This document shows, piece by piece, positions 14,994 to 24,482 of a stretch of DNA of 64,000 bases. The stretch's first letter is position 1. Every line of letters begins with the position of its first letter. This DNA is from Sulfuricurvum sp. Lineage in GTDB: Bacteria; Campylobacterota; Campylobacteria; Campylobacterales; Sulfurimonadaceae. The stretch covers positions 271,482 through 335,481 of the forward strand of contig JAUYAU010000004.1 in assembly GCA_030693335.1 (NCBI GenBank), in the 5' to 3' direction. Position numbers and translations under genes: made by a program. The notes below the pieces were generated by a model that worked only from the letters and a program-made list of their open reading frames with translations, did no database searches and was not told the origin of the DNA.

Positions 14994-15355
14994 AGCCTCT
15001 GAGCGCTTTATCGCTTCAAGCGCTATGTGAGCGTATAGATTATGTTCGTAACGGTGAAATTCACTCTCTGACCCCCATATCTGCCACTTCCATAGAAATA
15101 CGTTTTAGTGTCCAAGACAAGGCCAGAGGATTTGACTGGATTGATGTTGCTTTTGTGATTGATGGTGTTAGCGATGCTAAATTAGTCAGTGACAATGTTT
15201 TACGCATGCTGTCAATGGATGAGGGAATAACGGTTGATATGGATAGTACCAAGGCGGCGTTGGCAATAGGAGCTTATAAAGGGCGTATTGAAGATTCACC
15301 CCTTTATATTGTGGGTACAACTATGGGATATGAAGAACTGCCGTATAACGGTTAG
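14984..15355 (+). CDS. Uncharacterised protein overlapping the nrdA 3' end
   Basis: 123-aa ORF overlapping the nrdA stop by 10 nt on the same strand; no family recognised. Confidence 0.6.
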   Translation: MPVKPLSALSLQALCERIDYVRNGEIHSLTPISATSIEIRFSVQDKARGFDWIDVAFVIDGVSDAKLVSDNVLRMLSMDEGITVDMDSTKAALAIGAYKGRIEDSPLYIVGTTMGYEELPYNG

Positions 15356-16044
15356 TTGATTTGTACCCATGTGGTATTGCTGTCGTAAATGTAGGTAAGA
15401 TTGGTATCGCGATGGAAGACAATAGTTCCATTGATGGGTGACGCAGGGAAAGGATCAGTTGAAAGGGATACTACCGCACTGTTATAACCGCGTGTTTGGG
15501 TGGTAATTTCGGATCCGCCGTACAGTTTTAAATGATTGGTTTCACCGATACCGATTTCTATCATCAGATCATCGCCTTGCGCGGTGCTATGCGTTGCATT
15601 GGTCTGTAAAATACCATCCTCTCCAAGGCTAATGAGACGACCTAAGACGTTGGAATTAGGTGAAATGGATGTGTTGGTATCCGCGTAAATGGGGTCAATT
15701 GTATTGGCAATTCCAAAATCATAGGTAGAATAAAAGACATTACGTCCCCATGCATCTTTCCCAAGCCCGGCTATTACGGGAACGGTGGAATTTGTTTCTT
15801 CTTTTAATAGCTCAAAATAGGAATCATTATCGGGATCTTTGGCTAATCCTACCAATCGACTTCGGATTACTTCTAGGATGGTTTTGGTATTTTGATATTT
15901 TAGCGTATTGCCTTGGATCATAGTATAGTAACCCATCGTAGCTAGCACGGCAGCAATAACTCCTGCCATGATGACCGCAATCATCACTTCTAAGAGCATA
16001 AAGCCTTTTCTGACATTAATACTTTTATGCATGTTCGGCAGCAT
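15352..16044 (-). CDS. Pilin/pseudopilin-like protein (type II secretion/type IV pilus)
   Basis: Class III signal RKG|FMLLEVMIAVIMAGVIAAVLATM; four D/E-X-N-X-S/T sequons. Confidence 0.8.
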   Translation of the reverse strand: MLPNMHKSINVRKGFMLLEVMIAVIMAGVIAAVLATMGYYTMIQGNTLKYQNTKTILEVIRSRLVGLAKDPDNDSYFELLKEETNSTVPVIAGLGKDAWGRNVFYSTYDFGIANTIDPIYADTNTSISPNSNVLGRLISLGEDGILQTNATHSTAQGDDLMIEIGIGETNHLKLYGGSEITTQTRGYNSAVVSLSTDPFPASPINGTIVFHRDTNLTYIYDSNTTWVQIN

Positions 16045-17077
16045 TTATAAACTCTTGTTGGATTAATACTTGGGTTAGAACAATGGTGAAAAATTCTACA
16101 AAAACGGCAAATGCCAACAAAAGGATAGCCATAATCGTAATCATACGAAAGAAATTGGTAGCTGCGGTAAGGGCATTGAGTCGTGATCGATCTGAAAATT
16201 GTCCCAGCATATCACCTAGCTGGGTAATGTTTCCGGCACCGGCGAGAAGGCTTTGTTCGATGGGTTCAAAAAAATCAATCTCCCAAAAGTGCTTTTCCCC
16301 TCGGCTTAGGCGTTCTAAAACAGTGTTAAATTGTTTGGAGATGGAAGGGACAAGGGTGCTGTGTACTGCTGCTTTGAAGGATATTTTTAAAGAAACACCA
16401 TTTTTGAGCATTTCGCTTAATAGACTAAGAAGCATAAATTTCTCAAAATAGCCGATGATTCTGGATGAAATTGGGAGTAAAGATGCATATTGTTTTGCAA
16501 GGCCTTGCAACGCCCCTGTGTAGTTAAATAATGCAACCATAACAATGAAAAAATAAATCGTAAAAAGTACCAATAGCCCAAATAGAAGGTCGCTTAAATT
16601 TTGTGCAGTTTGTAAATGATCAGCGATTATGACTTGAATTTTGGGATCGTAGGTTGAGGCCTCTTTGAGATGAAACGGTATGGCAAAAAAACGAATACCG
16701 ATAACAATGACACTGGTCAAGGTAAAATAGATCAAAGGCAATGCAATTTTATCACTGGATTCTTGATAAAATTTATTTTTGATCTCTAAATAATTGACGA
16801 CCGATTTAAGTGTTTTAACAAAGGACCCACCCTTTTCTGCCATAGAGATAAATTGAATAATATCGGGTGATGGAGAAAGGTGTTTTTGGATTGATTTGGA
16901 AAAAGAGGCACCCTCTTGAATGGCTTTGGTTATTTGGGCATAGGTGCGCTGTTCGGATTTGTCTTTTGTGATGCCTTGCATTAGCATCAGTGCATTGGTG
17001 ATACTTTTACCATTTTCTAGCGATAATTGAAGCGTTTTGAGCAGTGCAAGCAGATCAGGTTTCATGTACGTACCCAA
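16025..17077 (-). CDS. GspF/PilC-like inner-membrane platform protein
   Basis: GspF-like duplicated architecture (NGKSITNALMLM; EGASFSKSIQKH; FISMAEKGGSFVKTLKSV; multiple TM). Alternative ATG at 17065. Confidence 0.8.
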   Translation of the reverse strand: MGTYMKPDLLALLKTLQLSLENGKSITNALMLMQGITKDKSEQRTYAQITKAIQEGASFSKSIQKHLSPSPDIIQFISMAEKGGSFVKTLKSVVNYLEIKNKFYQESSDKIALPLIYFTLTSVIVIGIRFFAIPFHLKEASTYDPKIQVIIADHLQTAQNLSDLLFGLLVLFTIYFFIVMVALFNYTGALQGLAKQYASLLPISSRIIGYFEKFMLLSLLSEMLKNGVSLKISFKAAVHSTLVPSISKQFNTVLERLSRGEKHFWEIDFFEPIEQSLLAGAGNITQLGDMLGQFSDRSRLNALTAATNFFRMITIMAILLLAFAVFVEFFTIVLTQVLIQQEFINAAEHA

Positions 17078-18617
17078 GTGACAATAGTTCGCTAGAGAGC
17101 GTTACGTGATCGCAGATGCCGTTATCAAAGAGATATTGTGCTGATTGAAAATAGCTGAAGGTGATGAAATGTTCCCATGCTTTAAATACGGTGCTGTTTT
17201 TGAGTGCAAGGTAAAATTGGTACCGTACTTTCATATCGCCTGGTATAAATACCATATCCAATAACAAAGCGCGCCCGTAGTAGCCCGTAAAATTGCATTT
17301 GATGCATCCAGTTTTTTCATATCCGGTGGACAGGCTATTGAAAAAAGCTTGCCCTTCTTGGGCAAAAGAAGGTTGTTTGCAGGTGCAGAGCTTGGGAACG
17401 AGGCGTTGAGCAATGACACCGCTTAATGAATAGGCAAGGATAAATAGGTCACCTCCCTCATCACGAATCCGCTCCATGGCCATGAAGCTGTTAGGGGTAT
17501 GGAGCGTTGAAAAAACCATGTGCCCACTGTGTGCCGCTTTTAGTCCCGTTAGGATCGATTCTTTGTCACGCATTTCCCCGATGACGATAACGTCAGGGTC
17601 TTGTCGCATGATTGACTTCATCCCCTCGACAAACGTAAATCCGCTGGCTTCATTGATCTGATATTGGGTTACGAAATCGATTTTATACTCGATAGGGTCT
17701 TCAATGCTGTAGATGATCTCATGTAAACGATCGCGTTGATTGAGGATTGCGTTGAGGGTTGTCGTTTTCCCGCTACCCGTAGGCCCTACTACCAAAAAAA
17801 ATCCACTCGATTGATTAACAAAATGGTGAACGTGTTCACTCATCGGATGCTGTTTGGGAAAGAGAGAAGTGAGTGTTTTAATGTTTTTGGATTTATCCAA
17901 AATACGCATGACGATGTTTTCACCGTATTGGGAAGGGGCGATTTCGATACGAAAATCGATGGAACGATCTTGATATTCTCTGGAAAAACTCCCCCCTTGA
18001 GGAGCATAAACATTGATCATGTCAATGTTACAGCGCTCTTTGATAATGAGGGCAAAACGCTGTGCCAATTCATGGTTGAGCAAAAATTTGGCATGAACAT
18101 GGCCATCGATGCGATATCGAAGCCAATAAAAGGACTCGTAGCCATTGAGGTGAATATCGCTCGCATTGCGTTGAATTCCATATTCCAGAAGCATCTCAAA
18201 AATGTCGATGACTTCATCTTCTTCAAAATCCATTGCGTTGTATTGTTTGATCTTGCGTTCAATAATTTCGGGGTCAACACGTAGATGCGCTGTGTATTTT
18301 TGCTGAAATTCACGTACAGGGATGTTTTTTTGCTCGACGCGCTTGCGTGCTTTAGTAGAGAGTTCAGCGAGGCGTATTTCGCCTAAGAGCTCTTTGCGCT
18401 CGATTTTGAGAACGGTTTCACTTTCTTCGGCGATCACCATCTCGTACTCTTTCATGAGTTCGAGATTATGGATGATTGCAGGTTCTTTTTTCTGTACGAA
18501 GTGATGTTCGAGGGCTATTTGAAGAAGATGTTTTTTAACGCCCTGCTGTTGGTAATAGTACTGCTCTTTTTGGCATACTTCCAGCTGTTTTGGCGTTAAT
18601 ATCTTCTTTATGTTCAT
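17055..18617 (-). CDS. GspE/PilB-like secretion/assembly ATPase
   Basis: Walker A GPTGSGKTTTLNAIL, Asp box IYSIEDPIEYKI, DPDVIVIGEMRDKESILTGLKAAHSGHMVFSTLHTPNS, zinc Cys pairs CTCKQ...CIKC. Confidence 0.93.
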   Translation of the reverse strand: MNIKKILTPKQLEVCQKEQYYYQQQGVKKHLLQIALEHHFVQKKEPAIIHNLELMKEYEMVIAEESETVLKIERKELLGEIRLAELSTKARKRVEQKNIPVREFQQKYTAHLRVDPEIIERKIKQYNAMDFEEDEVIDIFEMLLEYGIQRNASDIHLNGYESFYWLRYRIDGHVHAKFLLNHELAQRFALIIKERCNIDMINVYAPQGGSFSREYQDRSIDFRIEIAPSQYGENIVMRILDKSKNIKTLTSLFPKQHPMSEHVHHFVNQSSGFFLVVGPTGSGKTTTLNAILNQRDRLHEIIYSIEDPIEYKIDFVTQYQINEASGFTFVEGMKSIMRQDPDVIVIGEMRDKESILTGLKAAHSGHMVFSTLHTPNSFMAMERIRDEGGDLFILAYSLSGVIAQRLVPKLCTCKQPSFAQEGQAFFNSLSTGYEKTGCIKCNFTGYYGRALLLDMVFIPGDMKVRYQFYLALKNSTVFKAWEHFITFSYFQSAQYLFDNGICDHVTLSSELLSLGYVHET

Positions 18618-18648
18618 AGGCGCTTTTTGGCACTATTATAACATAAAA

Positions 18649-19164
18649 TTAACGGGATAGATAAAATTTAAACGTGGCGGATGTGGCGTTATGATCAAGT
18701 GTTGCTTGAGTCGAGGTGTAATTAAGTGCTAAACTGACAAGCGCTTCATCTTGTGTTGAATTGTTCTCTGCGGTTGTCATGATATAAAATTCCGTTCCTG
18801 TTTCTGTAGCGGTATATGCGGTAAATCCAGTTGGCGGGACAGGGACAAAACCATTTCGTCCACCGTCAAAAGCATAGGGAGTGGAGGTATTGCATTCCAA
18901 TGATGTGAGATTGGTATCTGAGGCATCAGCTCCTCCAACTTGATTGGGCATCTGCTCAGAGAGGCTTTTACATTGAAATACCATCGATTCAATTAGATTG
19001 ATTTGTGATTGGATTGCTGTTTTGTATTGGGAACGTTTTAGGTTGTCAGTATTTAAATAAAAATACCCTAACGTGCTTATCACCCCTACCAAAAAAATGG
19101 TAAGGGCAACTTCGATAAGAGTAAAAGCTTTTTTTTGCATGATACGATTATTTGACAATCGCAA
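18649..19164 (-). CDS. Minor pilin/pseudopilin
   Basis: QKKA|FTLIEVALTIFLVGVISTLGYFYL (Ala at -1); four D/E-X-N-X-S/T sequons. Confidence 0.75.
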   Translation of the reverse strand: MRLSNNRIMQKKAFTLIEVALTIFLVGVISTLGYFYLNTDNLKRSQYKTAIQSQINLIESMVFQCKSLSEQMPNQVGGADASDTNLTSLECNTSTPYAFDGGRNGFVPVPPTGFTAYTATETGTEFYIMTTAENNSTQDEALVSLALNYTSTQATLDHNATSATFKFYLSR

Positions 19165-19732
19165 TCCAATGTTTAAAGTTTATACCAATAGGTTCAGAAT
19201 AACAAAACGATTCACCATATAAGGCATAGTTGTCTGTTATAGTGCCAAAATTTGTATCGTTGGTAACATTGAGCTCAATACTGCGATTTAACTCTCGGTT
19301 GAAAATGGCACAGTATAAATCATCATCAGACAAAACATCCCATGAACCAGTTCCATTTAGATCGATAGGGAACAAGAATGCCGGGCGCCCTGCTGCTGCA
19401 GAAGTATTAAGTTCCCACCCTGTAGTCGTCATTTCTCGAATATTTCTTGGAAGACTTCGAAGAATTAGTACATTGGCTGCAGTAAATTGAGTTAAATTGG
19501 CTTCACTGGGCGCTATACCCTCTTGCGCGACAAAAATATCGTATGCACCCGAAAGCTGATAAGCTTGATTCATCAGTGCTGCAACACGTGCTTTTTTAGC
19601 CGTTAAATCAATATTGAACAAGCTTCTATAATAAAACAACGCGATGGCCGATAAAAGACCAAATAAGATAACGGCGATCGTCATCTCAACCAAAGAGATA
19701 CCTTTTCTTTTTCCATTGTAAGGGTGAACCAT
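19148..19732 (-). CDS. Pilin-like protein, divergent paralogue of the next two upstream pilins
   Basis: KRKG|ISLVEMTIAVILFGLL; shared GWELNTS...YCAIFNRELNRSIELNV...FCY pattern; five sequons. Confidence 0.8.
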   Translation of the reverse strand: MVHPYNGKRKGISLVEMTIAVILFGLLSAIALFYYRSLFNIDLTAKKARVAALMNQAYQLSGAYDIFVAQEGIAPSEANLTQFTAANVLILRSLPRNIREMTTTGWELNTSAAAGRPAFLFPIDLNGTGSWDVLSDDDLYCAIFNRELNRSIELNVTNDTNFGTITDNYALYGESFCYSEPIGINFKHWIAIVK

Positions 19733-19911
19733 GTTAAAACTCCTTTTGTAACATTCGTGTTCAGCTAAATCGACAGTGAATAAAAAAACTTTAATGGATG
19801 AAGTAAAAAAGTTAATGAAGAGTTAATAAAAGTGAAGTAAATCACTCCTGCCCCACAAGGGGGGGGAAAGAGGGTGTATGGGGATTAAAACAGAGAGTTT
19901 CTTTAACCCAA

Positions 19912-20475
19912 TTACGGCATTACAACCAAAATATCGTATCCATCAGTAGGGTTTCCATAACAGTAGCTTACTGCAGTAGATGCAACATGCGTAGGTGCTG
20001 TGATAGTACCATAATCTTCTGTACCACTGACATTCAATTCAACAGATGAATTGAATTCACGGTTCCAGATAGCACAGTATTGAGTTGCTTGAATTGATGT
20101 TGTATTTCCATCAAGTTTCATATGGAATCCATATCCAGAACCAACGCCCGTAGTTGTGTTTAAGTCCCATCCAAGCAAGCTCATCTCTGTAATAGTAGCA
20201 GGAATAGCGGTTAACACTGGAGTGAGTGTTGCATTTAGATCGTATATCGTTGCCGGAGCACCGTATTGTGTTGTGTACAATTTATAGGCTTGTGTCAATT
20301 GAGTACCTTGCTCCATTGCCGCAGCAACACGTGCTTTCATTGCCTGAAGATCCGTGTTAATATAGTTCTTCGTGTATTTAAGACCAATAGTAGCCAATGC
20401 TGCGAATAAAATAATCGCGATCATCATCTCTACGAGAGAGATACCTTTTCTCATTCCTGTGTAATTCTGGGTCAT
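19912..20475 (-). CDS. Pilin-like protein (tandem paralogue B)
   Basis: MRKG|ISLVEMMIAIILFAALATIGLKY; highly similar to 20664..21227; five sequons. Confidence 0.85.
   Translation of the reverse strand: MTQNYTGMRKGISLVEMMIAIILFAALATIGLKYTKNYINTDLQAMKARVAAAMEQGTQLTQAYKLYTTQYGAPATIYDLNATLTPVLTAIPATITEMSLLGWDLNTTTGVGSGYGFHMKLDGNTTSIQATQYCAIWNREFNSSVELNVSGTEDYGTITAPTHVASTAVSYCYGNPTDGYDILVVMP
20399..20463 (-). repeat. 65-nt perfect direct repeat, copy 1 (5' end of pilin B)
   Basis: gctgcgaataaaataatcgcgatcatcatctctacgagagagataccttttctcattcctgtgta, identical to 21151-21215. Confidence 0.9.
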
Positions 20476-20536
20476 TGTGCATCCTTGTTGTCGAAATGTA
20501 AAGATTCAGATACATTGGTATCATTAAAAAGGATGT

Positions 20537-20554
20537 AAGCAATCTTTGTACCAA
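20537..20554 (-). promoter_or_regulatory. Putative sigma-54 promoter of pilin B
   Basis: Minus strand TTGGTACAAAGATTGCTT: GG-N10-GC spacing, close to TTGGCACN5TTGCT; about 60-80 nt upstream of the ATG at 20475. Confidence 0.65.
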
Positions 20555-20607
20555 TTTTTTACATAAGGAATTTTTATTCAATGAAAGAAAGAAAAGAGAG
20601 ATGAATC

Positions 20608-20631
20608 TACTTGCACCAGCTGGTGCAAGTA
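20608..20631. repeat. 24-nt perfect palindrome between pilin A and pilin B
   Basis: TACTTGCACCAGCTGGTGCAAGTA. Confidence 0.9.
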
Positions 20632-20663
20632 AGGGTATATAAAAGATAAAGCTAGAGGCTCAA

Positions 20664-21227
20664 TTACGGAAGTTTAACGATAACAGTATACCCATCAGTA
20701 TGTGTACCAAAGCAGTAGCTTAATCCTGTTGCAGGAGCATAGTTAGGTGCATCGATAGTACCGGCATCTTCTGTTCCACTGACATTCAATTCAACAGAAG
20801 AATTGAATTCTTTGTTCCAAATCTGGCAATATTGTGCAGGTTGGAGCGCAGTGGTGTTTCCATCAAGTTTCATTGTAAATGCATATCCAGAACCAACACC
20901 TGTACTTGTGTTCAAATCCCATCCAAGCGTACTCATTTCAGTGATTATGGCAGGAAGATCAGTCATTACTTTAGTTTCTGTTGCATTAAAATCATTGATC
21001 GATGTTGGAGTGCCGTATTGTGTTGTGTACAATTTATAGGCTTGAGTCAATTGGGAACCTTGATCCATTGCCGCAGCAACACGTGCTTTCATTGCCTGAA
21101 GATCCGTGTTAATATAGTTCTTTGTGTATTTAAGACCAACTGTAGCCAACGCTGCGAATAAAATAATCGCGATCATCATCTCTACGAGAGAGATACCTTT
21201 TCTCATTCCTGTGTATGCTTGTGTCAT
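20664..21227 (-). CDS. Pilin-like protein (tandem paralogue A)
   Basis: MTQAYTGMRKG|ISLVEMMIAIILFAALATVGLKY; ORF opens at 21260 but ATG at 21227 matches the paralogue; five sequons. Confidence 0.85.
   Translation of the reverse strand: MTQAYTGMRKGISLVEMMIAIILFAALATVGLKYTKNYINTDLQAMKARVAAAMDQGSQLTQAYKLYTTQYGTPTSINDFNATETKVMTDLPAIITEMSTLGWDLNTSTGVGSGYAFTMKLDGNTTALQPAQYCQIWNKEFNSSVELNVSGTEDAGTIDAPNYAPATGLSYCFGTHTDGYTVIVKLP
21151..21215 (-). repeat. 65-nt perfect direct repeat, copy 2 (5' end of pilin A)
   Basis: Identical to 20399-20463. Confidence 0.9.
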
Positions 21228-21269: not shown

Positions 21270-21713
21270 TTATTTTGGTATATTTAATACGTATGGATGA
21301 ACCGTGATGGTAAATCCATATTCATCCGCAGTGCACCCTTTCCCGATGCAGCTGCTGACTAATTCTACGTCGTCATGTTTGACAACATCCAAGAGCCGTT
21401 TCAGTAGCAAGTAAGAGTAGGTTTCATGAATGCCTCCTTGGATAATTAATTTTTGGTTCTCGATCTTTACCATGGCATCCATTTCCAGTTCTTGGATGAG
21501 CTCATTGTATTGATCGTTCTTGGCACGGAGGACTTGATCCTCCGCGTACACAGCAACAGGCTGCTCCACGGCAGTTTTTAAAGCACTAAAGGTCTTCACC
21601 TCTTCGGCTACCGTTTTATCTTCGTACACAATGTCGAGAAAGTAAAAGTAGGTTGACACTAAGATTGTCATCAAGATAACAACGAAAAGAGCAACAAGAC
21701 TATACTTTTTCAT
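21270..21713 (-). CDS. Small bitopic membrane protein, PilO/GspM-like by position
   Basis: MKKYSLVALFVVILMTILVSTYFYFLD N-terminal TM plus periplasmic domain; between PilN-like and pilin genes. Confidence 0.5.
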   Translation of the reverse strand: MKKYSLVALFVVILMTILVSTYFYFLDIVYEDKTVAEEVKTFSALKTAVEQPVAVYAEDQVLRAKNDQYNELIQELEMDAMVKIENQKLIIQGGIHETYSYLLLKRLLDVVKHDDVELVSSCIGKGCTADEYGFTITVHPYVLNIPK

Positions 21714-22494
21714 TACAAAACTGCACGATGCCTGCAGCAGCATCTTCCTTTTTTATTTTAGCTTCCGGTGGTAACAATCCGATGAAAGCATTGAGGTTTG
21801 GTGTCACCACCTCAGCACATAAGCTATCATCTTGATAGCTTATCTGCTGAAGGGTGGACCCCGACGCCTGAGTGATTTTCTCAATCTTTTCGAGTTCACC
21901 TACCATGTCCACTTTTTTGGTCATGGCGAGAGAGACTTGACAGTTTTTGGTTACGAGCTGTTTGTACTCTGTTACGAGGGTGTCACGATTGGTGAGATTG
22001 AGCTCAGTTGAGTTCAAATAATCGTAACCCGCGTAAAAGAGTACAGACGTGATAACAACGGTACAGGCCAATAGAAAGCTTCCAGTCCAAGTGTCTTTTC
22101 GATCCTTATCAAGATTGAGTGATACGAGTTTGTCTCCTTTGGTGTTATCCGCATAAATAGTTTCATAGCTGCGCTCCTTGGCAAACTCTTCGGGTTTATC
22201 CAAAATGTAATCGATAATTTTCTGATCATCCAAAACAACTCCTACTTGTTTGTAGTCGAGTTCGAAGATGATGATACTTTTCCCTGTATTCTTGGATGCG
22301 AGTAAAAGGATATTTTCATAAACCAATTTCTCTTTTGGCAAGAATGCGATGTAATTGATCCCATCGGAATGCTTACGTAAGGAGACCTTGACGGCGTTCG
22401 AGTCAAGATCTGCTCGCGCGTAACGGTATACTTGCGCACGGATCTTGTCGATGTCGCTGGTAAGATTGAGGCACCCTGCTGTAAATATTGCCAT
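21700..22494 (-). CDS. Bitopic membrane protein, PilN/GspL-like by position
   Basis: Cytoplasmic N-terminal domain, single TM (GSFLLACTVVITSVLFYAGY), periplasmic coiled region. Confidence 0.5.
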   Translation of the reverse strand: MAIFTAGCLNLTSDIDKIRAQVYRYARADLDSNAVKVSLRKHSDGINYIAFLPKEKLVYENILLLASKNTGKSIIIFELDYKQVGVVLDDQKIIDYILDKPEEFAKERSYETIYADNTKGDKLVSLNLDKDRKDTWTGSFLLACTVVITSVLFYAGYDYLNSTELNLTNRDTLVTEYKQLVTKNCQVSLAMTKKVDMVGELEKIEKITQASGSTLQQISYQDDSLCAEVVTPNLNAFIGLLPPEAKIKKEDAAAGIVQFCNEKV

Positions 22495-22496
22495 GG

Positions 22497-24029
22497 TTAC
22501 TTCATCACATACTTGATGACGCGAGGGGTAACGATGATTACCATCTCGCTTTTGGTGCTGGCAGTACTGCGCGCTCCCCCCACTACCGCTGCTTGAGTAT
22601 CTCCTAGTCCCGGAATTCCATTCCAGCCTTTGTCGCTTTTGTTGCGGAAAAGTCCAGAGATGACAATCGGTACACCCGGTTGAACACGCATGGTATTGTT
22701 GATCGCTTTAGTAACGGTTGTGGGTTGTGAAAATTTCGTAGCTCCTACTTCGAAATTGGTAAAGCCTACTACGTCGTTAATCGTGAGCCCAATGTCGGTG
22801 ATAACGGTTCCATCGAGCATGTTGGATTTGAGATTGATCTCTAAACCACTGAGGGCCGTTGCACTGGTGGTTGAGAGTTGTGCCGTGCCATTGGCAACAG
22901 ACGTACTTGTTATCCCGCTGATGTAAGGAGTCTGAACACCATCGGTGAGTTTAACGTTTGTTCCTGCAAGCCCAAGGAGCTTTGGTCGTTGTACGCTCTC
23001 TACTTTTCCGAAGTTTTCCAGTGCATTGACAAGCGCCTGTCCGTTGTATTTTTCATTCTTCATAAGCATGCCAAAAGTCAATGGAGCGGCAGTGGTTCCC
23101 GCTGCGCCCAATGAAGCGGCCGATGAAGCGATGAATCCAATTCCATTTTCTGCCATTGAAGGGATTAGACTCCAGTTGATACCAAGCGCATAGTTGTCTT
23201 TGAGGTCAACGGTATAGATAGAAATTTCATATTCGATGACGTAAAGATTATCGCGAAGAATTTTAAGATAATTCATGATATCGCCGTACTCTTTTTCTTT
23301 TGCGGAGAAAGTGATGGTTGAGGTAATAGAATCGAAAGCGATATTGGTAGCCCCCATAGAGCTTAAGCTTGTGCGCATTGCTGTTGAAAGACCTTCAACC
23401 GCTGGAATTTTTAGGGTGGTGGTATGAACATGACCTAAGTAGAAGGTGTCATCATAATATTGTATCCCCAATTTGTCGCCGATGGTTTTTTGGAGAACTT
23501 TTCCAAAGGCCATATTGGATGCCGAGAGATTGACTTTGGTATTAGTAAGGAGATGGTTATTATTGCCAATTCGTCCCATTCCACCAGCACCTCCAATTCC
23601 TCCGACACCACCAATTCCAAGACCTCCTGCCCCTACGCCAGCACCACCAACGCCACCAACGCCACCAACTCCACCAATTCCACCAACTCCGATTCCTCCG
23701 CCTATGTTCATTCCTATCGCTTCCGATTGAACCTGAAAAACAATATTTTCATTGGTGGCTTCTGTCAAAAGGGCAATGACATCGTTTAGGCTCGCTCCCA
23801 TTATTTTGGCACGTTTGATGATCTCTTTGTCAGGTATCGTTTGGGTTTCTATGTGAAAATTGTCGGCGTTGACTTCCACAATCTGCATAGCAGGTTCGCT
23901 GCTTTGAATTTGTGTGGTGTTATTCTCCAGCTCTTTGGGAGACATTTCTGGTGTTAACATCTCTTTTTTGGTAACAACACTGCATCCGGTGAATCCTAAA
24001 AGAGCAATGGCGAGTATCAATGAGCGCAT
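22497..24029 (-). CDS. Secretin (GspD/PilQ/MshL-like outer-membrane pore), lipoprotein signal
   Basis: Lipobox LLGFTGC; C-terminal VQRPKLLGLAGTNVKLTDGVQTPYISG ... VQPGVPIVISGLFRNKSDKGWNGIPGLGD ... EMVIIVTPRVI. Confidence 0.9.
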   Translation of the reverse strand: MRSLILAIALLGFTGCSVVTKKEMLTPEMSPKELENNTTQIQSSEPAMQIVEVNADNFHIETQTIPDKEIIKRAKIMGASLNDVIALLTEATNENIVFQVQSEAIGMNIGGGIGVGGIGGVGGVGGVGGAGVGAGGLGIGGVGGIGGAGGMGRIGNNNHLLTNTKVNLSASNMAFGKVLQKTIGDKLGIQYYDDTFYLGHVHTTTLKIPAVEGLSTAMRTSLSSMGATNIAFDSITSTITFSAKEKEYGDIMNYLKILRDNLYVIEYEISIYTVDLKDNYALGINWSLIPSMAENGIGFIASSAASLGAAGTTAAPLTFGMLMKNEKYNGQALVNALENFGKVESVQRPKLLGLAGTNVKLTDGVQTPYISGITSTSVANGTAQLSTTSATALSGLEINLKSNMLDGTVITDIGLTINDVVGFTNFEVGATKFSQPTTVTKAINNTMRVQPGVPIVISGLFRNKSDKGWNGIPGLGDTQAAVVGGARSTASTKSEMVIIVTPRVIKYVMK

Positions 24030-24430
24030 TATTCACCTCCCGCTGTAAAATAGATGGTCTGCGTTCTTCCTGCGTCATCAACCGTAATGAAGTTACTGGT
24101 GATATTTCGTATAAAATATTTACTATTATTGGCATAAAAAGGGTCACCCTCTTTGAGAACAACCGTATTTTCACCTATTTTAAGCAAAATGAATTTTCCT
24201 TTGGCTGTTTCTAAAAAACAGCTATAGACGAGATTAGAAAGATCAAAAGGTGCTTTTGGTGCGACCAAATTAGTCTCAAATGCCGGTTTTAAAAGCGGAG
24301 GAAGCGGCATTGCTTGTGCGGCAGGTGCCAGTACAGGCGCTTTTTTTTGTTTTGCAAGAGGCTTGAAAAATGGGTTGTAGGCCGCATTTACCGAAGCTGC
24401 AATGAAAAGAAATGACCAAAAGTAGTTCAT
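24029..24430 (-). CDS. Small periplasmic protein, first gene of the secretion/pilus cluster (PilP/MshK-like by position)
   Basis: Signal peptide; SKGKFILLKIGENTVVLKEGDPFYANNSKYFIRNITSNFITVDDAGRTQTIYF-type HR-domain-like repeat. Confidence 0.5.
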   Translation of the reverse strand: MNYFWSFLFIAASVNAAYNPFFKPLAKQKKAPVLAPAAQAMPLPPLLKPAFETNLVAPKAPFDLSNLVYSCFLETAKGKFILLKIGENTVVLKEGDPFYANNSKYFIRNITSNFITVDDAGRTQTIYFTAGGE

Positions 24431-24463: not shown

Positions 24464-24482
24464 AAAGCAAGATGTGTGCCAA
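24464..24482 (-). promoter_or_regulatory. Putative sigma-54 promoter of the secretion/pilus operon
   Basis: Minus strand TTGGCACACATCTTGCTTT; GG-N10-GC, near-perfect match to TTGGCACGN4TTGCWTT; 34-52 nt upstream of ATG at 24430. Confidence 0.8.

Follow-up and report, generated by a model that had tools for sequence, protein, structure and literature searches.

The window analysed here, a 64,000-nucleotide stretch of Sulfuricurvum sp. DNA, contains on its minus strand an operon whose genes run, in order, PilP-like protein, secretin, PilN-like protein, PilO-like protein, pilins A, B and C, minor pilin, ATPase, platform protein and last pilin. The first gene (24029..24430) encodes a small exported protein of 133 aa, which is assigned as PilP/CtsR-like from its position and has orthologues at related loci, and is followed by a secretin of 510 aa (22497..24029; Pfam Secretin, 6.4e-16) for which the closest NCBIfam model is MshL, with a score below that model's cut-off. 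A long Gly/Val/Ile-rich repeat spans approximately residues 110-150 of this secretin, and the lengths of its orthologues range from 479 to 510 aa. Two predicted inner-membrane proteins come next, one PilN-like (21700..22494; 264 aa), assigned from position and topology and giving no Pfam or NCBIfam match, and one PilO-like (21270..21743; 157 aa), assigned from position and giving no Pfam or NCBIfam family match over cut-off. Downstream of the minor pilin, the operon encodes an assembly ATPase of the GspE/PilB family (17055..18617; 520 aa; Pfam T2SSE, 1.7e-81) and a short platform protein of the GspF/ComGB/PilC family (16025..17077; 350 aa; Pfam T2SSF, 3.3e-17), the latter matching the NCBIfam ComGB model at 2.5e-16, below its cut-off. 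Neither PilM nor PilT was identified in the cluster; elsewhere, the genome encodes two more GspE/PilB-type ATPases, two PilT-size ATPases and one prepilin peptidase.

Five pilin-like proteins complete the operon. Pilin A (20664..21227; 187 aa), which was modelled as a pilin, and pilin B (19912..20475; 187 aa) are 78% identical, while pilin C (19148..19732; 194 aa) is the copy found in nearly all orthologous clusters; these are joined by a minor pilin (18649..19164; 171 aa) and by a last pilin (15352..16044; 230 aa) with weak GspG/prepilin matches. Class III signal peptides (G/A-F-x-x-x-E-type) were matched by PF07963 or TIGR02532 in A, B, C and the minor pilin, and weakly in the last pilin. 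The GspG major pseudopilin was not found in the operon, where the last pilin reaches only 16 bits against TIGR01710 (cut-off 88.85); the genuine GspG of the genome is located at C14:193622-194008. An AlphaFold model of pilin A generated with 23 sequences (pLDDT 78, middling) comprises a long N-terminal helix (residues 14-38 and 41-71) and a small head. A fold search with this model placed PilA1, a type IV major pilin from C. difficile, first, though only as a weak match (E 0.03, probability 0.96), and the next pilin in that ranking is from Neisseria.

Three putative promoters were identified on the same strand: a sigma54-type site (TGGCAC-N5-TTGCTT; 24465..24481) 51 nt upstream of the operon's first gene, a second one matching the pattern exactly (TGGTAC-N5-TTGCTT; 20537..20553) upstream of pilin B, and a sigma28 (FliA)-like site (TAAAGTTT-N-CGATTT; 19767..19793) ~60 nt upstream of pilin C. 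A sigma54-type site precedes the operon in all eight loci examined, at the same distance in most, with the strict form at six and a TGGAAC variant in L097 and L098; in L097, two tandem copies of the pilin gene also have such a site upstream, as pilin B does here. In 516 kb the strict pattern was found three times, two of these occurrences being in this operon; a looser scan of the window, tolerating two mismatches, did not rise above chance, so that the case for these sites depends on their exact agreement with the pattern and on the conservation of their position. The sigma28-like site precedes pilin C in most orthologous loci, and its pattern, which was derived from these very sites, occurs twice in the ~516 kb sample; FliA is encoded in the genome. 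Given that sigma54 and sigma28 mainly serve flagella in this phylum, the presence of both kinds of site suggests that the pilus may be expressed under the flagellar sigma factors, and hence together with the flagellar regulon.

Searches with pilin A recovered matches in 12 of 36 same-genus genomes and none in the genomes sampled from other families, and the operon ATPase scores 1160 bits within the genus, while no homologue from the other genera covered by the search exceeds 275 bits. Together, these results indicate a genus-restricted and patchily distributed system. A separate contig scan reached only Sulfuricurvum and its near relatives, plus a single distant match. Orthologous clusters possess from one to four A/B/C copies. 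Two divergent members, L101 and L102 (ATPase 72% identical), have far fewer sequons (the D/E-X-N-X-S/T motif) in their pilins, with the most divergent, L101, carrying five over three pilins and none in the minor pilin; these loci could reveal how sequons arose or vanished.

Sequon density and selection on the acceptor motif

The original prediction, that the five pilins share 23 sequons at a density above chance, proved exact in its open reading frames, letters and counts: five each in pilins A, B and C, and four each in the minor and last pilins. Shuffling of the mature part of each protein predicts only 0.13-0.31 sequons per protein, and the actual count was reached in 0 of 2000 shuffles for four pilins and in 1 of 2000 for the last pilin (each P <=0.0005). 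Pooled, the 23 sequons compare with 1.0 +/- 1.0 in shuffled sequences (shuffle maximum 4), and the reversed motif, S/T-X-N-X-D/E, does not occur in the five proteins. The remaining operon products were as first described, with no sequons in the PilO-like and small PilP-like proteins and one each in the PilN-like protein (ELNLT) and the secretin (ENNTT), both of which are kept in most orthologues; the GspE- and GspF-type proteins also have none. All five sequon asparagines of pilin A (81, 106, 124, 142 and 148) fall in the modelled head. Given a prepilin N-terminus and sequons confined to the C-terminal head, the acceptor heads are predicted to lie in the periplasm or outside the cell, a topology taken from the pilin class.

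We also compared the pilins with other proteins of at least 100 aa in stretches of this genome totalling ~516 kb, roughly a quarter of it, of which 423 were assigned to the four classes counted, the export class being a crude hydrophobicity call. The five pilins occupy ranks 1-5 for sequon density among exported proteins. Exported proteins as a whole carry 82 sequons versus 29.7 in shuffled sequences (2.8-fold), cytoplasmic proteins 39 versus 43.5 (0.9-fold) and polytopic proteins 11 versus 9.3. The corresponding figures for exported proteins were 21 versus 14.8, only 1.4-fold, in a second Sulfuricurvum genome (G016), and 24 versus 19.9 in a relative without STT3 (G044).

Examination of 46 pilins from the window and same-genus relatives revealed an acidic residue at position -2 for 203 of 284 N-X-S/T asparagines (71%), versus 17 of 317 other asparagines (5%), with D/E frequencies of 3-14% at the other offsets tested. 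Among 26 A/B/C pilins, 78% of sequons persist between pairs less than 45% identical, against 3.9% predicted from independent background conservation, which bears out the earlier idea of selection for glycan sites. The D/E, N and S/T positions are kept at 79-84%, whereas the X positions are kept at 30%, near the background of 32%, and within the motif D interchanges with E and S with T. Orthologues share ancestry, so that these sites are not independent events, a dependence for which the X-position and other-asparagine contrasts control in part. In well-preserved clusters each A/B/C copy keeps five or six sequons, and duplicated pilins retain every site. At the level of sequence, this pattern is the signature expected of an N-glycan acceptor read by an enzyme with the PglB rule.

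PglB and the distribution of sequon-rich pilins

A single STT3-family gene was identified in the genome (G000:C1:66608-67768), and its 724-aa product can be aligned with C. lari PglB over the full length (3rce/5ogl; 523 bits). Residues D56, D154, E319, R331 and WWD of C. lari PglB are matched in register, by hand count on the alignment; R331 makes contact with the acidic residue at -2 but does not determine the -2 rule on its own (PMC4894442). The protein matches the NCBIfam ProtGlycPglB model at 3.1e-184, yet falls below that model's very high cut-off. The gene adjoins a phosphoglycosyltransferase, and the surrounding region also encodes glycosyltransferases, a Wzx-type flippase and a sugar aminotransferase, which makes it plausible that a lipid-linked glycan is produced. 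STT3 is present in 53 of 60 relatives; among the 12 cluster-bearing genomes, PglB was not found in two, G023 and G026, for which completeness is only 83% and 88%. The three observations on which the original prediction hinged, namely a full-length PglB gene in the genome, a sequon density far above a composition-shuffled null and conservation of the sites in orthologues from 12 same-genus genomes, were thus all obtained.

Across PglB-bearing Campylobacterales genomes, type IV-type pilins carry 44 sequons versus 5.6 expected, with two or more in 13 of 20, while the pilins of STT3-less relatives carry 6 versus 4.9 expected and none has two or more. For one pilin sub-type, a sequon is present in 17 of 17 PglB-bearing versus 2 of 7 PglB-less cases (Mann-Whitney P = 0.0002), the PglB-less pilins belonging mostly to one family and therefore not being independent. 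For PglB-less pilins, which offer only six sites, a Fisher test comparing sequon with non-sequon N-X-S/T did not reach significance (P = 0.11), and we therefore relied on the per-pilin counts. From sequence, pilins dense in sequons seem to be widespread among PglB-bearing genomes. The earlier description of a distinct surface system thus stands in that the operon is genus-restricted, but not with respect to sequon-rich type IV pilins, which are common in PglB-bearing Campylobacterales.

Further sequon-rich proteins were encountered during these surveys. Pilins with six extended sequons each, unrelated to the operon, occur at L209 and L196 in other Campylobacterales families. In the window genome itself, an exported 943-aa protein without a Pfam match (L034:14942-17773, plus strand, equivalent to G000:C14:34942-37773) carries 16 extended sequons versus 1.4 expected and adjoins two pilin-like genes with two sequons each, making this a second sequon-rich, pilus-like surface locus. 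Two lipoprotein-like products with Big_5 and Ice_binding-like domains (L043:2543-3991 and L043:17290-18741, both minus strand) contain six and five extended sequons, respectively, and are likely, to judge from these motifs, to be further dense N-glycoproteins.

A predicted N-glycosylated pilus and its alternatives

We consider there to be a good case that this operon is type IV-pilus-like, with filament subunits that would serve as multi-site substrates of the cell's general N-glycosylation pathway. Its product would probably be a bacterial filament displayed on the cell surface and densely covered in sugars, a type of structure for which archaea have until now provided the best examples. In such a scheme, the pilins would insert in the inner membrane so that their C-terminal heads face the periplasm, where PglB would attach a lipid-linked oligosaccharide to the asparagine of D/E-X-N-X-S/T at 4-6 sites per head, before or during assembly. 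The leader would be trimmed by prepilin peptidase, and the GspE/GspF-type motor, together with the PilN-, PilO- and PilP-like proteins, would extrude the glyco-pilins via the secretin as a sugar-coated surface filament. We infer occupancy of the sites, export of the filament from the cell and a coat that lends it stability or shielding. Type IV pili rise ~1 nm per subunit, and at full occupancy five sites per subunit would place approximately five glycans on each nm of the filament.

A serious but unlikely rival is that the operon encodes a DNA-uptake pilus of the Campylobacter Cts kind, with glycosylation stabilising the uptake apparatus. The order small protein-secretin-PilN-like-PilO-like-ATPase-platform resembles that of C. 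jejuni ctsR-D-P-X-E-F, the competence systems of C. jejuni (Cts) and of the H. pylori type also combining a secretin, GspE-/GspF-type components and small inner-membrane proteins, arranged much as in this operon, and ComGB, the best model of the platform protein, is itself a competence component, albeit matched below cut-off. The rival owes its seriousness to the fall in C. jejuni competence when N-glycosylation is absent, pgl mutants being described as partly losing competence (Larsen 2004, as cited in PMC6478998). In Sulfuricurvum, however, the pilins lie inside the operon, the ATPase family is confined to the genus by the gap in bit scores given above, the presence of the pilins in only a third of same-genus genomes makes the system look accessory, and either of the two other GspE/PilB-type ATPases in the genome could serve uptake.

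It is less probable that the pilins form a periplasmic pseudopilus akin to that of type II secretion systems (T2SS) and are glycosylated merely as periplasmic proteins, even though GspE and MshL/GspD-like parts and several pilins share one operon, as in a T2SS. Pilin open reading frames at T2SS loci of the same order (n = 52) are unenriched, with 5 sequons versus 4.9 expected, the 19 GspG-like ones among T2SS-locus frames contain none, and the window genome's own T2SS pseudopilins also contain none. A periplasmic location is thus insufficient to explain sequon richness, and a T2SS pseudopilus is disfavoured. The split between type IV and T2SS pilins is imperfect, because a class of pilins from PglB-bearing genomes, related in sequence to those at T2SS loci, is intermediate (15 versus 2.4), a few proteins driving the excess. 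The original prediction had left open a pilus or a pseudopilus; because T2SS pseudopilins and PglB-less pilins lack the enrichment seen in type IV-type pilins, the comparison favours an extracellular N-glycosylated type IV-like pilus, in keeping with the weak type IV fold match. More broadly, and with moderate confidence, we propose that PglB-bearing Campylobacterales N-glycosylate extracellular type IV pilins and not periplasmic pseudopilins, the Sulfuricurvum operon representing an accessory pilus with sigma54-type and sigma28-like promoters and 4-6 sites in most subunits.

We regard as more doubtful still the idea that the sites are glycosylated but neutral, solvent-exposed surface pilins simply tolerating sequons. 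Such tolerance would fit a general enzyme and the overall enrichment among exported proteins of this genome, but sites held at 78-100% beside X residues drifting at the background rate point to purifying selection. Least credible, and rejected here, is a structural role for unglycosylated motifs as Asx turns or metal-binding loops of the head, which would suit the four or five sites at identical places in all A/B/C pilins and the several sites at helix or strand ends in the model, but not a single D/E, N, S/T rule obeyed at five places there, and at others in the minor and last pilins, while X drifts, nor the enrichment of unrelated type IV pilins in PglB-bearing but not PglB-less genomes, nor the unenriched cytoplasmic proteins.

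Comparison with known systems

PglB glycosylation and type IV pili are each already known. In the literature searched, the coverage of which was incomplete, we found no report of bacterial type IV pilins so densely N-glycosylated by a PglB-type enzyme, nor any linking Sulfuricurvum with glycosylation and pili; the sugars of bacterial type IV pilins described there are O-linked at few sites, and the multi-site N-glycosylated filaments of the pilin family are archaeal. The present results describe a bacterial pilin family under clear selection for 4-6 PglB sites per subunit, within an order-wide bias that is seen in type IV pilins but not in T2SS pseudopilins. Through this pilus, the purpose of general N-glycosylation in bacteria becomes testable, and sequon content may offer, in PglB-bearing bacteria, a sequence-only hint distinguishing pilins that exit the cell from those that do not. 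Stability, shielding, adhesion and phage evasion are all candidate roles for the coat, among which sequence does not decide; if the proposal is true, phages, biofilm partners and grazers would have natural targets in filaments whose subunits each carry several glycans.

There is a close enzymatic likeness to the general N-glycosylation system of C. jejuni, with which Sulfuricurvum shares a PglB orthologue, its catalytic and -2-binding residues, the acceptor motif and a general effect on exported proteins (PMC6478998, PMC4894442). The C. jejuni examples are few-sited, e.g. two sites each in CmeA/B/C (PMC6478998), whereas each small Sulfuricurvum pilin has 4-6, and the Sulfuricurvum sugar-building genes resemble the C. 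jejuni pgl set only partly. With MSHA-type and type IVa pili, the operon shares a secretin nearest to MshL, prepilin motifs and a pilin fold for which a type IV major pilin is the best, if weak, match, but its machinery falls below the NCBIfam equivalog cut-offs and its cluster lacks an identifiable PilM or PilT. The pilins of Neisseria (PglL/PglO) and Pseudomonas (PilO/TfpO) are likewise sugar-modified bacterial type IV pilins, although their glycans are O-linked to few Ser/Thr residues by unrelated enzymes, in contrast to the N-linked motif and many sites in Sulfuricurvum.

By analogy, we consider the archaellum the nearest functional parallel. Archaellins and archaeal pilins also form filaments of the type IV-pilin superfamily in which each subunit bears several N-glycans, attached by an enzyme of the STT3 family (there AglB), and the FlaB2 subunit of Methanococcus maripaludis bears four N-glycan sites, the removal of all four abolishing archaella (PMC4336324). 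The Sulfuricurvum system differs in its bacterial envelope with a secretin, in a PglB rule with an acidic -2 residue and in the filament itself.
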